Both the position numbers and the translations under genes were made by a program. A stretch of 64,000 nt of DNA, taken from assembly GCF_001458175.1 (NCBI RefSeq), contig NZ_CYPW01000017.1, forward strand, positions 1 to 64,000, written 5' to 3'. Of this stretch, positions 24 through 12,516 are shown in pieces (position 1 is the stretch's first letter; each line of letters starts with the position of its first letter). The notes under the pieces are model-generated. The model was not told where the DNA came from. It ran no database searches and saw only the letters and a program-made list of their open reading frames with translations. This stretch comes from Shimia marina (GTDB lineage: Bacteria > Pseudomonadota > Alphaproteobacteria > Rhodobacterales > Rhodobacteraceae).

Positions 24-110
24 TGTCCATCCTTTGCTTGGACGGATTACTAACATCTCAATGGCCCGATTTCAGGGGGCTGGGTCAACCAGATTTCACG
101 AACAGAACAT

Positions 111-135
111 AAAGGCGCTCTTCGGAGCGTCTTTT
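111..135. terminator. Terminator-like hairpin left of the sRNA array
   Basis: A 10-bp stem closes on a TTCG loop and is flanked by T and A runs on both sides. The C(TTCG)G tetraloop and one G-U pair favour the plus strand. However, the only transcript that obviously needs an end here is the minus-strand sRNA array at 198-702, for which the hairpin has one A-C mismatch followed by TTT. It may work in both directions. Confidence 0.5.
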
Positions 136-197: not shown

Positions 198-270
198 GCG
201 GCGACATCAGGGAGGAGGAGAGATGTCGCCGCGCTTCACACAAAAGGCTCAGGGAGGAGGAAAGAGCCCT
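198..270 (-). ncRNA. Cuckoo/CcsR-like sRNA unit 5 (last)
   Basis: First hairpin 264-268 with 246-250 (short, with a loop variant UUUCCUCCUCCCU), second hairpin 222-232 with 198-208, a perfect 11-bp stem. It ends the array. The next strong hairpin in the direction of transcription is the terminator-like structure at 111-135. Confidence 0.78.
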
Positions 271-306
271 TTGATACCGGTGCCTCGCGGGAGGCGAATT
301 TCAAGT

Positions 307-383
307 GCGGCAGCACCAGGGAGGAGGAGAGGTGCTGCCGCTCTAGTCTCAAGAGATCTCAGGGAGGAGGAGAGAGATCCCTT
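307..383 (-). ncRNA. Cuckoo/CcsR-like sRNA unit 4
   Basis: First hairpin 374-383 with 351-360 (a G-U wobble on the minus strand only), second hairpin 331-341 with 307-317, a perfect 11-bp stem. Both loops carry the CCUCCUCCC core. The layout and spacer match unit 3, showing that the units arose by tandem duplication. Confidence 0.82.
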
Positions 384-414
384 GATTCCGGTGGGCGTTA
401 AGCCCGAATTCTGC

Positions 415-490
415 GCGACGACACCAGGGAGGAGGAGAGGTGCCGTCGCTCTAGTCTCAAGAGGTCTCAGGGAGGAGGAGAGAGACCGCT
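415..490 (-). ncRNA. Cuckoo/CcsR-like sRNA unit 3
   Basis: First hairpin 482-490 with 460-468 (GGUCUC core), second hairpin 439-449 with 415-425 (11 bp, one minus-strand G-U pair), both with the 13-nt anti-SD loop. It is preceded by a spacer with a GGGC/GCCC mini-hairpin and the sequence CACCGGAATCAA, repeated before unit 4. That spacer could be a processing site. Confidence 0.82.
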
Positions 491-522
491 TGATTCCGGT
501 GGGCGTTGAGCCCGAATAAGCT

Positions 523-598
523 GCGACGATACCAGGGAGGAGGAGAGGCATCGTCGCTTTGTTCAAGCCACTCCAGGGAGGAGGAGAGGAGAGACTTG
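523..598 (-). ncRNA. Cuckoo/CcsR-like sRNA unit 2
   Basis: Two hairpins with identical 13-nt anti-SD loops. The first (588-598 with 564-574) has a 4-bp upper stem, a 3-nt internal mismatch and a 4-bp lower stem. The second (547-557 with 523-533) is an 11-bp stem with a single G-U pair on the minus strand that would be an A-C mismatch on the plus strand. A small hairpin with arms 618-622 and 608-612 separates it from unit 1. Confidence 0.8.
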
Positions 599-633
599 AT
601 CTGGTTTGGACCTTTCTGGTCCGGTGTTCCCTA

Positions 634-702
634 CGACGACACCAGGGAGGAGGAGAGGCATCGTCGCAGTCATGGAGAACCAAAAGGGAGGAATGGTTCT
701 CC
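634..702 (-). ncRNA. Cuckoo/CcsR-like sRNA unit 1 (first after DUF1127)
   Basis: The unit has two hairpins. The first (694-702 paired with 674-682) has a 9-bp stem and a shortened 11-nt loop UUCCUCCCUUU. The second (657-666 paired with 634-643) pairs fully only on the minus strand, using U-G and G-U wobbles. It begins eight bases after the DUF1127 stop codon, so it is probably cut out of the same transcript. Its first loop deviates most from the consensus. Confidence 0.78.
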
Positions 703-925: not shown

Positions 926-1169
926 GTCGTCTCTCTCAGTCAGGCGTATCGTCTGTTGTCTTGTGATTGGTGATATAGGGTTATGCTGCGACTGCACAAT
1001 AGACGGTCTCGCAAAGCAGTTATGCACCTAGGGTATAGCGGAAGTTACGTTAAGGTAAACTGCGCAAAAAATGAGCAAGATGCGGATTTGGTTGAAGAAA
1101 TGTGAAATTTTTACTACATGATAAACGAGATTTTGCTCGCATTTTGCACTTGCAGCATAGGAGTTCAGC

Positions 1170-2246
1170 ATGCCAATCACTAAGGACGAAATTCAGGCTA
1201 TTTTGGCTAAATTGGAATTGCCAGGTGGTGGAAACCTTATTTCCAGAGACTTTGTTCGCGCCCTAAGCATTCGCGAAAAAAATGTGCAGTTTGTCATCGA
1301 AGCACCGAACGCAGAAATTGCCCGACTGATGGAGCCGCTGCGCAAAGCTGCAGAAGCAAGCGTTGCCGCGTTGGACGGTGTCGACTCGGTGCAGGTTGCG
1401 GTGACCGCACATACGGAGGCACCCTCCGCCAAGCCTGCGGCCCCGAGCCTGAAAATCGGCGGCCATCCAAAACCGCAGGCTGGGCCGATGAAGGTGGCTG
1501 GGGTGGCGCGTATCTTAGCGGTTGGATCTGGCAAGGGCGGTGTTGGCAAATCCACCGTCAGTTCCAATCTGGCCGTCGCCCTTGCCAAACAGGGGCGCAA
1601 AGTCGGCCTCCTGGACGCTGATATCTACGGGCCAAGCCAGCCGCGCATGATGGGCGTGCACAAACGCCCGGCCTCTCCGGATGGCAAAACCATCATGCCT
1701 CTAAAGGCACATGGCGTAACAGTGATGTCCCTCGGCTTGATGCTGGAAGAGGACAAACCGGTCGTGTGGCGGGGGCCTATGTTGATGGGGGCCCTGCAAC
1801 AAATGCTCACGCAGGTGCAATGGGGCGAGCTGGATGTGCTGATCGTCGATCTGCCTCCGGGCACAGGTGACGTGCAGCTGACGCTCTGTCAAAAGACGGA
1901 ACTGACCGGTGCAATTGTGGTGAGCACGCCGCAGGATGTTGCTCTCCTGGACGCCCGCAAAGCCCTTGGCATGTTTGATCAATTGAAGACACCTGTGCTT
2001 GGGCTGGTCGAGAACATGAGCCTGTTTCACTGCCCCAAGTGTGGTCACGAATCTCATATCTTTGGCCACGGCGGTGTGGCTGCTGAAGCTGAGAAACTTG
2101 GCGTACCTTTGTTGGGCGCCCTGCCGATCGATCTGGACACGCGCCTTGCCGGTGATGGGGGCACGCCCATTGCAGCAGGCGAGAGTGATATGGCCGCAGC
2201 CTACGGCCGGATAGCCGAAGGGTTGATTCGTGGCGGGATGGCATAG
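1170..2246 (+). CDS. mrp: Mrp/ApbC iron-sulfur cluster carrier ATPase
   Basis: This 358-aa P-loop protein matches the Mrp/NBP35 (ApbC) family, which binds and hands over Fe-S clusters in the cytoplasm. An N-terminal MIP18-like domain covers about residues 1-80, followed by an Ala/Pro-rich linker. The deviant Walker A GKGGVGKST is at 121-129, the family signature DADIYGPSQPRM near 149-160, and VDLPPGTGD near 226-234. The pair C288-x2-C291 is the cluster-binding CxxC of the homodimer. An AGGAG sits before ATG 1170. It stands alone, divergent from the DUF1127/sRNA unit. Confidence 0.93.
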   Translation: MPITKDEIQAILAKLELPGGGNLISRDFVRALSIREKNVQFVIEAPNAEIARLMEPLRKAAEASVAALDGVDSVQVAVTAHTEAPSAKPAAPSLKIGGHPKPQAGPMKVAGVARILAVGSGKGGVGKSTVSSNLAVALAKQGRKVGLLDADIYGPSQPRMMGVHKRPASPDGKTIMPLKAHGVTVMSLGLMLEEDKPVVWRGPMLMGALQQMLTQVQWGELDVLIVDLPPGTGDVQLTLCQKTELTGAIVVSTPQDVALLDARKALGMFDQLKTPVLGLVENMSLFHCPKCGHESHIFGHGGVAAEAEKLGVPLLGALPIDLDTRLAGDGGTPIAAGESDMAAAYGRIAEGLIRGGMA

Positions 2247-12306: not shown

Positions 12307-12516
12307 ATGGCTTTCATCAGCATCCCCTCAGCAGCCCCTGCCGCAGGTAAATCTATTCTCTCCCGCCTGAAACAAGCGGCCGCTGTGCGGCGTCAACGGC
12401 GCCAGTTGGCACAGCTAGACAGCTTTGCCCTCGATGACCTCGGCCTCACAAATGCCGATGTGCAAGAAGAACTGAAGCGTACCGCTTGGGACGTGCCTGC
12501 CCATTGGAAGGGCTAA
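12307..12516 (+). CDS. Second DUF1127 small protein
   Basis: 69 aa, starting at ATG 12307 with AGGAG upstream. The arginine-rich segment VRRQRRQLAQLDSFALDDLGLTNADVQEEL matches DUF1127. An N-terminal Ala/Pro-rich stretch distinguishes it from the copy at 710-925. No CCUCCUCCC hairpins follow it. Small DUF1127 proteins are implicated in RNA binding and in phosphate, carbon and stress adaptation. It is the divergent partner of a LysR regulator. Confidence 0.82.
   Translation: MAFISIPSAAPAAGKSILSRLKQAAAVRRQRRQLAQLDSFALDDLGLTNADVQEELKRTAWDVPAHWKG

Follow-up and report, generated by a model that had tools for sequence, protein, structure and literature searches.

The array at positions 198-702 on the minus strand of the window (the whole analysed stretch of 64,000 nucleotides of Shimia marina) was assigned with high confidence to the ccaF1-CcsR operons of the CcsR/cuckoo kind and is predicted to encode five sRNA units, which makes it one more member of a known sRNA family. 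In transcriptional order, the minus-strand unit comprises an RpoH-like promoter with an embedded dyad, a DUF1127 gene, five hairpin pairs with structured spacers and a terminator-like site (Table 1). The dyad TTGTGC-N4-GCAGCA might place the anti-Shine-Dalgarno (aSD) sRNA arrays of Rhodobacteraceae outside the class of pure stress genes. According to this reading, for which belief and doubt are held in equal measure, a near-invariant operator in a stress promoter would join the arrays to a regulon of central carbon, C1 and NADPH genes (phosphoserine transaminase, crotonyl-CoA carboxylase/reductase, transhydrogenase, formate-tetrahydrofolate ligase) to which a peroxiredoxin and an Fe-S carrier would also belong, all of them controlled by a separate factor. 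In R. sphaeroides, the CcsR RNAs are reported to act on C1 metabolism and pyruvate dehydrogenase (PMC10253847, PMC8625941). The operator reading, if true, would bear on why they act on these two targets, which is unanswered by stress biology alone.

Table 1. Positions of the array, its operon and the neighbouring dyad copy in the window.
Feature	Position	Strand	Basis
Terminator-like (intrinsic) site 3' of the array	106-129	-	stem CGCTCCGAAGAGCG followed by CCTTTATGTT
Hairpins 1-5	674-702, 631-669, 563-599, 523-557, 457-493	-	hairpin scan
Hairpins 6-10	413-451, 349-385, 304-344, 241-273, 198-232	-	hairpin scan
CcsR unit 1: variant short hairpin 674-702 (loop TTCCTCCCTTT) and long hairpin 631-669	631-702	-	CcsR1 40.3 bits, E 4.5e-8
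CcsR unit 2: hairpins 563-599 and 523-557	523-599	-	CcsR1 47.5 bits, E 3.3e-10
CcsR unit 3: hairpins 457-493 and 413-451	413-493	-	CcsR1 44.2 bits, E 3.2e-9
CcsR unit 4: hairpins 349-385 and 304-344	304-385	-	CcsR1 53.3 bits, E 6.2e-12
CcsR unit 5: hairpins 241-273 and 198-232	198-273	-	CcsR1 52.3 bits, E 1.3e-11
Spacer 1, small third hairpin GGACC/GGTCC	600-630	-	paired in MFE and centroid folds
Spacer 2, small hairpin GGGC/GCCC	494-522	-	fold and sequence
Spacer 3, small hairpin GGGC/GCCC	386-412	-	fold and sequence
Spacer 4, small hairpin GCCTC/GAGGC	274-303	-	fold and sequence
DUF1127 gene, 71 aa, CcaF1-like	710-925	- (array strand)	PF06568 E 2e-14
Predicted RpoHI/RpoHII-type promoter, TTG-N17-CCTATAT, TTGTGCAGTCGCAGCATAACCCTATAT	973-999	-	read upstream of the DUF1127 start
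Dyad TTGTGC-AGTC-GCAGCA, putative operator over the -35 TTG and the promoter spacer	984-999	-	read directly
Second dyad copy TTTTGC-ACTT-GCAGCA (one mismatch)	1142-1157	+	13 bases before the divergent mrp/apbC start
mrp/apbC gene	1170-2246	+	NUBPL/ParA Pfam E 2.5e-99

The hairpin scan of the array resulted in ten hairpins with alternating shorter and longer stems, forming five short and long pairs which together fill 198-702 exactly from end to end. The sequence-only reading had proposed ten hairpins with a nearly fixed loop holding the core. The number, the alternation and the pairing were reproduced, but the full core was found in nine loops. CCUCCUCCC was present in nine of the ten loops, and the hairpin nearest the DUF1127 gene contained only UUCCUCCC. 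The longer motif CCTCCTCCC was also detected in nine loops, eight of which are TCTCCTCCTCCCT and one TTTCCTCCTCCCT; the tenth loop, adjoining the DUF1127 stop codon, is TTCCTCCCTTT with a length of 11 nt. The first detected hairpin lacked the full CCTCCTCCC in 19 of the 25 Shimia arrays, with mostly CTCCTCCC in its place, and in two of the remaining six arrays the first hairpin apparently escaped detection.

The five-unit tandem periodicity proposed earlier was recovered, as the long-type loops were 108-110 bp and the short-type loops 106-110 bp apart and TRF gave a period of 108 bp with 87% matches over 314-588. Units 2-4 were mutually 72-81% identical (81% for unit 3 with unit 2), and units 1 and 5 were more divergent, the values of unit 5 being lowered by cutting this unit without a spacer. 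The 12-mer CAGGGAGGAGGA occurred in nine copies in the 4.0 Mb genome; since all of these were confined to 208-654 and the reversed control gave none, the array is beyond chance. Over 2001-64000 of the window, the array hairpin detector returned four single matches and no cluster. The determined folding energy of the array strand was -260 kcal/mol, compared with -182 +/- 7.6 for 20 dinucleotide shuffles (z -10.3). Three terminator-like sites were found in 1-1300, where 1.0 was expected from shuffles. A further TTCCTCCC, unpaired in the centroid fold, was observed on the minus strand at about 145-160, past the last unit and before the terminator-like site.

The covariance-model search of the cuckoo family, which had been suggested as a check, gave a divided result. 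The Rfam model CcsR1 (RF02791) matched all five units with 40.3-53.3 bits, but the gathering score of 65.3 bits is above every one of these matches, and at gathering scores Rfam found two tRNAs only in the 64-kb window. As the E-values ranged from 6e-12 to 4.5e-8, we read the gathering threshold as too strict for this clade. Among 60 genomes (this genome and 59 relatives), 35 had a CcsR1 match at E <= 0.001 and none reached the gathering score, so the Rfam threshold passes none of the matching genomes; one of 14 control genomes also matched at E <= 0.001. At least two CcsR1 matches were detected in all the 25 genomes of the genus Shimia examined. Weak CcsR1 matches at two loci of relatives (L120, L121) were not accompanied by an array according to the hairpin counter. 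A second cuckoo locus in the S. marina genome, considered on the basis of a CcsR1 match of 34.7 bits at C27:560537, was rejected, as it consists of two terminator-like hairpins without CCUCCUCCC.

The assignment to the cuckoo/CcsR type made in the sequence-only reading agrees with the five CcsR1 matches, the DUF1127 gene on the 5' side, the RpoH-like promoter and the terminator-like site. The closest counterpart is ccaF1-CcsR1-4 of R. (Cereibacter) sphaeroides, for which the same layout is reported and RNase E cuts the precursor into sRNAs (PMC10253847). Both loci consist of a DUF1127 gene and, behind it, a tandem series of two-hairpin sRNA units with CCUCCUCCC loops, flanked by an RpoH-like promoter and a terminator or terminator-like site. 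Two adjacent stem-loops with full CCUCCUCCC loops were found here in four of the five units, whereas only one of the two loops of unit 1 carries the full motif. In contrast to the four units of R. sphaeroides, the present array has five, with a short first loop and model matches below the gathering score. Chains of hairpins with the CCUCCUCCC loop are also reported for SmelA075/SmelA099 and ar14 (RF02344), the aSD-loop sRNAs of Rhizobiales (PMC3927594), but there each RNA has 3-4 hairpins and the genome holds several copies, whereas here there is one compact five-unit array. The ar14 model matched four stretches of the array, with E-values of 6.7e-8, 2.6e-6, 2.3e-4 and, for the last, 1.5; none of them reached its gathering score.

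The DUF1127 gene stands on the same strand directly upstream of the array. The genome has six DUF1127 matches, of which only this one has an array beside it, and, apart from two stray matches, an operator within two mismatches (TTGTGC/GCAGCA) was likewise found beside this gene alone. Another of the DUF1127 matches lies in the window at 12358-12462 on the plus strand and has neither an array nor a close dyad. The possibility that the DUF1127 gene escapes its own anti-SD sRNAs by a weak Shine-Dalgarno sequence was rejected (Mann-Whitney p 0.54) in a weak comparison of 25 Shimia genes with 41 long ORFs of the window, the starts being taken as the first ATG.

The stems of the hairpins were found to covary. 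In 86 distinct Shimia hairpins, the eight loop-proximal pairs were paired in fractions of 0.78-0.93, each above the maximum of 500 shuffles which keep the relatedness of the sequences; this set was limited to hairpins whose loop differs from TCTCCTCCTCCCT by no more than one substitution. Several pair types occurred per stem position, e.g. CG 26, AT 16, TA 14 and GC 7 at pair 3. For other genera, 194 distinct hairpins gave 55-86% pairing, again with each position above the shuffle maximum.

The spacers between the units were also structured. The stems of the four inter-unit spacers of the window differ yet stay complementary. A perfect stem of at least four pairs was detected in 56 of 65 distinct Shimia spacers, compared with 22% after mononucleotide shuffling, and, outside Shimia, in 80 of 87 distinct spacers, compared with 29%; spacers were taken only if both flanking loops were near the consensus and 48-64 nt apart. 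The Shimia stems were mostly GGGCC/GGCCC or GGACC/GGTCC, with GCCTC/GAGGC in the window as well. In other genera, the stems were less varied, CCGGG/CCCGG and CCGGC/GCCGG being the commonest, and some of the counted stems may be the foot of the main hairpin because the spacers were cut by loop distance. In our reading, the spacer hairpin adds a third structural element to the repeat and perhaps guides processing. The RNase E-like motif RNWUU was not a feature of every spacer; its raw counts were 27 among the 65 distinct Shimia spacers and 26 among the other 87.

Two readings of the array without an RNA function were weighed against the CcsR assignment. Frames on either strand could encode a repetitive protein in which the hairpins are incidental. 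The overlapping frames pointed out in the sequence-only reading are indeed present (161 aa on the plus and 144 aa on the minus strand); stops are few in GGAGG repeats, and in several relatives a single antisense frame runs open through the entire array. However, none of the coding frames was consistently open across the arrays of the 25 Shimia genomes, the open frame differs between genomes, the loop spacings vary by amounts that are not multiples of three and the stems covary, so the probability of this explanation is close to nil. The array could instead represent repetitive extragenic palindromes or the remnant of a mobile element, which would agree with similar palindromes in tandem and with the identical spacers inside some arrays. 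That origin is very improbable, considering that the array is a single locus in the genome and stands behind DUF1127 in most relatives examined, that a near-constant loop is combined with variable paired stems, and that the promoter and the dyad are conserved.

The use of an RpoH-type sigma factor at the promoter is inferred from its sequence. The pattern TTG-N16-18-C[CT][TC]ATNT was present in 68 of 109 DUF1127 upstream regions and in about 0.4% of shuffled ones, and the -35 TTG is reported to be important for both RpoH proteins of R. sphaeroides (PMC3441632). The upstream set started from 110 loci in which the array strand encodes a DUF1127 relative; one (L101) was dropped for lack of a start codon, and two of the resulting 109 are duplicates. 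The dyad TTGTGC-N4-GCAGCA was found exactly within 420 nt upstream of 97 of the 109 DUF1127 relatives. The N6 spacing occurred once and the spacings N1-N3, N5, N7 and N8 were absent. Among the 99 upstream regions that keep 12 or 13 of 13 bases, the positions immediately flanking the dyad are mostly variable, which argues that the conservation of the dyad is not plain sequence relatedness. The dyad of the window stands just outside the region which had been singled out as the array.

The distribution of the dyad was determined by a combined search for the dyad and the -10 element with up to two mismatches, which matched 145 of 295 genomes of the family, the reversed control matching two. Among 385 genomes drawn from the class, 20 matched, compared with two control matches. 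Four of the 20 are family members and the 16 matches outside the family, all with one or two mismatches, look like background. Of 30 loci from the family search that were examined, 26 had two or more aSD hairpins in the 1.3 kb downstream of the dyad, and a DUF1127 match was present at 25. Neither an array nor DUF1127 was found at L202 and L210; at L208 and L216 the array follows 3' of the dyad with no DUF1127 match in between. At ten loci (nine of Sulfitobacter and one of a Roseobacter MAG) the dyad is 64-71 bases before an array sited upstream of DUF1127. Since some arrays are preceded by the dyad although no DUF1127 match intervenes, it goes with the arrays, and it was found at array promoters over much of Rhodobacteraceae. 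In the full texts searched, where subscription journals are thinly covered, neither this dyad at array promoters nor the inter-unit spacer hairpin was found described.

The dyad was also detected before other genes. On the mrp strand, an operator with at most one mismatch was present at 14 of the 109 loci (12 without two duplicates), all belonging to the genus Shimia. Exact matches of TTGTGCANNYGCAGCA in 37 genomes amounted to 56, of which 55 were in Shimia genomes, and the reversed control gave three. Array promoters accounted for 21 and the divergent mrp promoter for seven of these matches. The exact dyad preceded serC in six cases (L178, L180, L185, L188, L191, L260), the proteins being 91-100% identical, pntA in two (L174 and L187; 734 and 736 bits) and ccr in one (L196; TIGR01751, 616 bits). 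It was found once each before genes for a peroxiredoxin (L255), bioY (L257), formate-tetrahydrofolate ligase/fhs (L192), a solute-binding protein (L258), an ANTAR regulator (L179) and a TetR-like gene (L261). The L192 dyad touches the end of the upstream frame, and a 180-aa frame crosses the dyad in L174. At L259 the dyad precedes a short frame and at L262 no long frame; five chance-like copies were inside long frames (L177, L186, L190, L194, L197). This sorting leaves out L172, L256 and four matches in G008, G015, G017 and G018.

The S. marina genome itself has a single exact copy of TTGTGCANNYGCAGCA, that of the array promoter. In addition, 14 dyads with one mismatch were examined, nine inside genes, one ambiguous and four non-coding, the last being located at mrp, the peroxiredoxin, the acetoacetyl-CoA reductase gene and L130. 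As the non-coding sites are four among 14, the wider regulon is thin in this genome. The S. marina peroxiredoxin with the one-mismatch dyad is 89% identical to the L255 peroxiredoxin. The element of the acetoacetyl-CoA reductase gene (L137; TIGR01829, 348 bits with a cut-off of 302) is 104 bp before the gene, and the product scored below the cut-off of the PhaB equivalog model NF042966. The overall pattern, assembled after the fact from counts that keep the relatedness of the genomes, suggests a regulon of carbon, C1 and redox genes.

Several candidates were considered for the factor that would bind the dyad. PhaR, the polyhydroxybutyrate-responsive regulator, is a tentative and rather unlikely one. 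The half-sites TTGTGC and GCAGCA equal those of PhaR (AniA) operators reported for S. meliloti, TTGTGC-ACC-GCAGCA at the mmgR promoter and TTGTGC-AGT-GCAGCA at SMa1961 (PMC12542648, Table 3); moreover, there is one phaR match in the S. marina genome and the one-mismatch element before its acetoacetyl-CoA reductase gene. However, these operators have three bases between TGC and GCA, as does CTGCNNNGCAG in R. sphaeroides (PMC12542648), and S. marina has a CTGC-N3-GCAG site upstream of its phasin match, whereas the upstream regions of the arrays have N4 in 97 and N3 in none of 109. The PhaR operator is described by YGCR-N-YGCR (TGC-N3-GCA), and TGC-N4-GCA was found at the array promoter. It is unlikely that the dyad is only an extended recognition sequence of the sigma factor and involves no separate regulator. 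Its fixed place over the -35 element and the spacer of an RpoH-like promoter would be in accordance with such a role, but the dyad is symmetric, it is kept at 12 of 13 bases where the -10 element varies (Sulfitobacter L070, L071, L077, L087), and its ccr and pntA copies have no CYTATNT at the corresponding place.

Binding by a TetR-like regulator of the P0002 family (PF00440 23.3 bits, just under the cut-off of 24) which controls its own gene is considered improbable. In the Shimia genome G006, the gene is preceded by an exact N4 site and by another with two mismatches. Ten of 30 homologues had a site scoring 10-12 of 12 at a distance of 43-44 or 68 bases upstream of the start, and a score of at least 11 was obtained in 7 of 30 homologues compared with 13 of 600 random stretches. 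On the other hand, the S. marina homologue (L286) has no site, its best score being 8 of 12, and most homologues of about 50% identity have none; also, G029, G030 and G035, which are family members with CcsR1 matches, gave no match at E <= 1e-10. ScfR/RamB was set aside: the class 2 RamB site is described as two boxes 18 bp apart (PMC10370305), and the two loci with ScfR-domain genes had bare TGC-N4-GCA cores, lacking a TTGTGC or GCAGCA dyad. CenR was rejected too, its reported site TGA-N8-TGA (PMC9275681) not fitting the dyad. A study on LsrB/OxyR (PMC11975290) gave no lead to the dyad site.

By analogy with R. sphaeroides, stress sigma factors would drive one transcript of the CcsR operon, which RNase E together with the DUF1127 protein would cut into sRNAs. 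Each sRNA would present two CCUCCUCCC-type loops for pairing with the Shine-Dalgarno region of chosen mRNAs, and the pairing would lower the translation or stability of the target. A second, metabolic input might enter via the TTGTGC-N4-GCAGCA dyad, the binding factor of which would compete with or assist RNA polymerase at the array promoter. The copies of the unit would mainly raise the dosage and would be renewed by tandem duplication and loss.

The array had been described as a larger expansion, which is correct in relation to the four units of R. sphaeroides but not within the family, where the widely varying size of the arrays places five units in the ordinary range. The hairpin counts in the 25 Shimia genomes were 5 to 12, the commonest being 8, although the counter undercounts some loci (L014, L016, L025, L036 and L038 gave 5-7 in comparison with 8 by another counter). 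At least ten hairpins were found in four of the 25 arrays, those of the window, L023 and L031 with 10 each and L035 with 12. Outside Shimia, 16 hairpins were counted in Mesobaculum littorinae, 13 in Pseudoruegeria aquimaris, 12 in Pelagimonas phthalicica and 13 each at loci L209 and L227 of two other family members. Four identical spacers were present in each of the arrays L035 and L064, which is a sign of recent tandem duplication or homogenisation.
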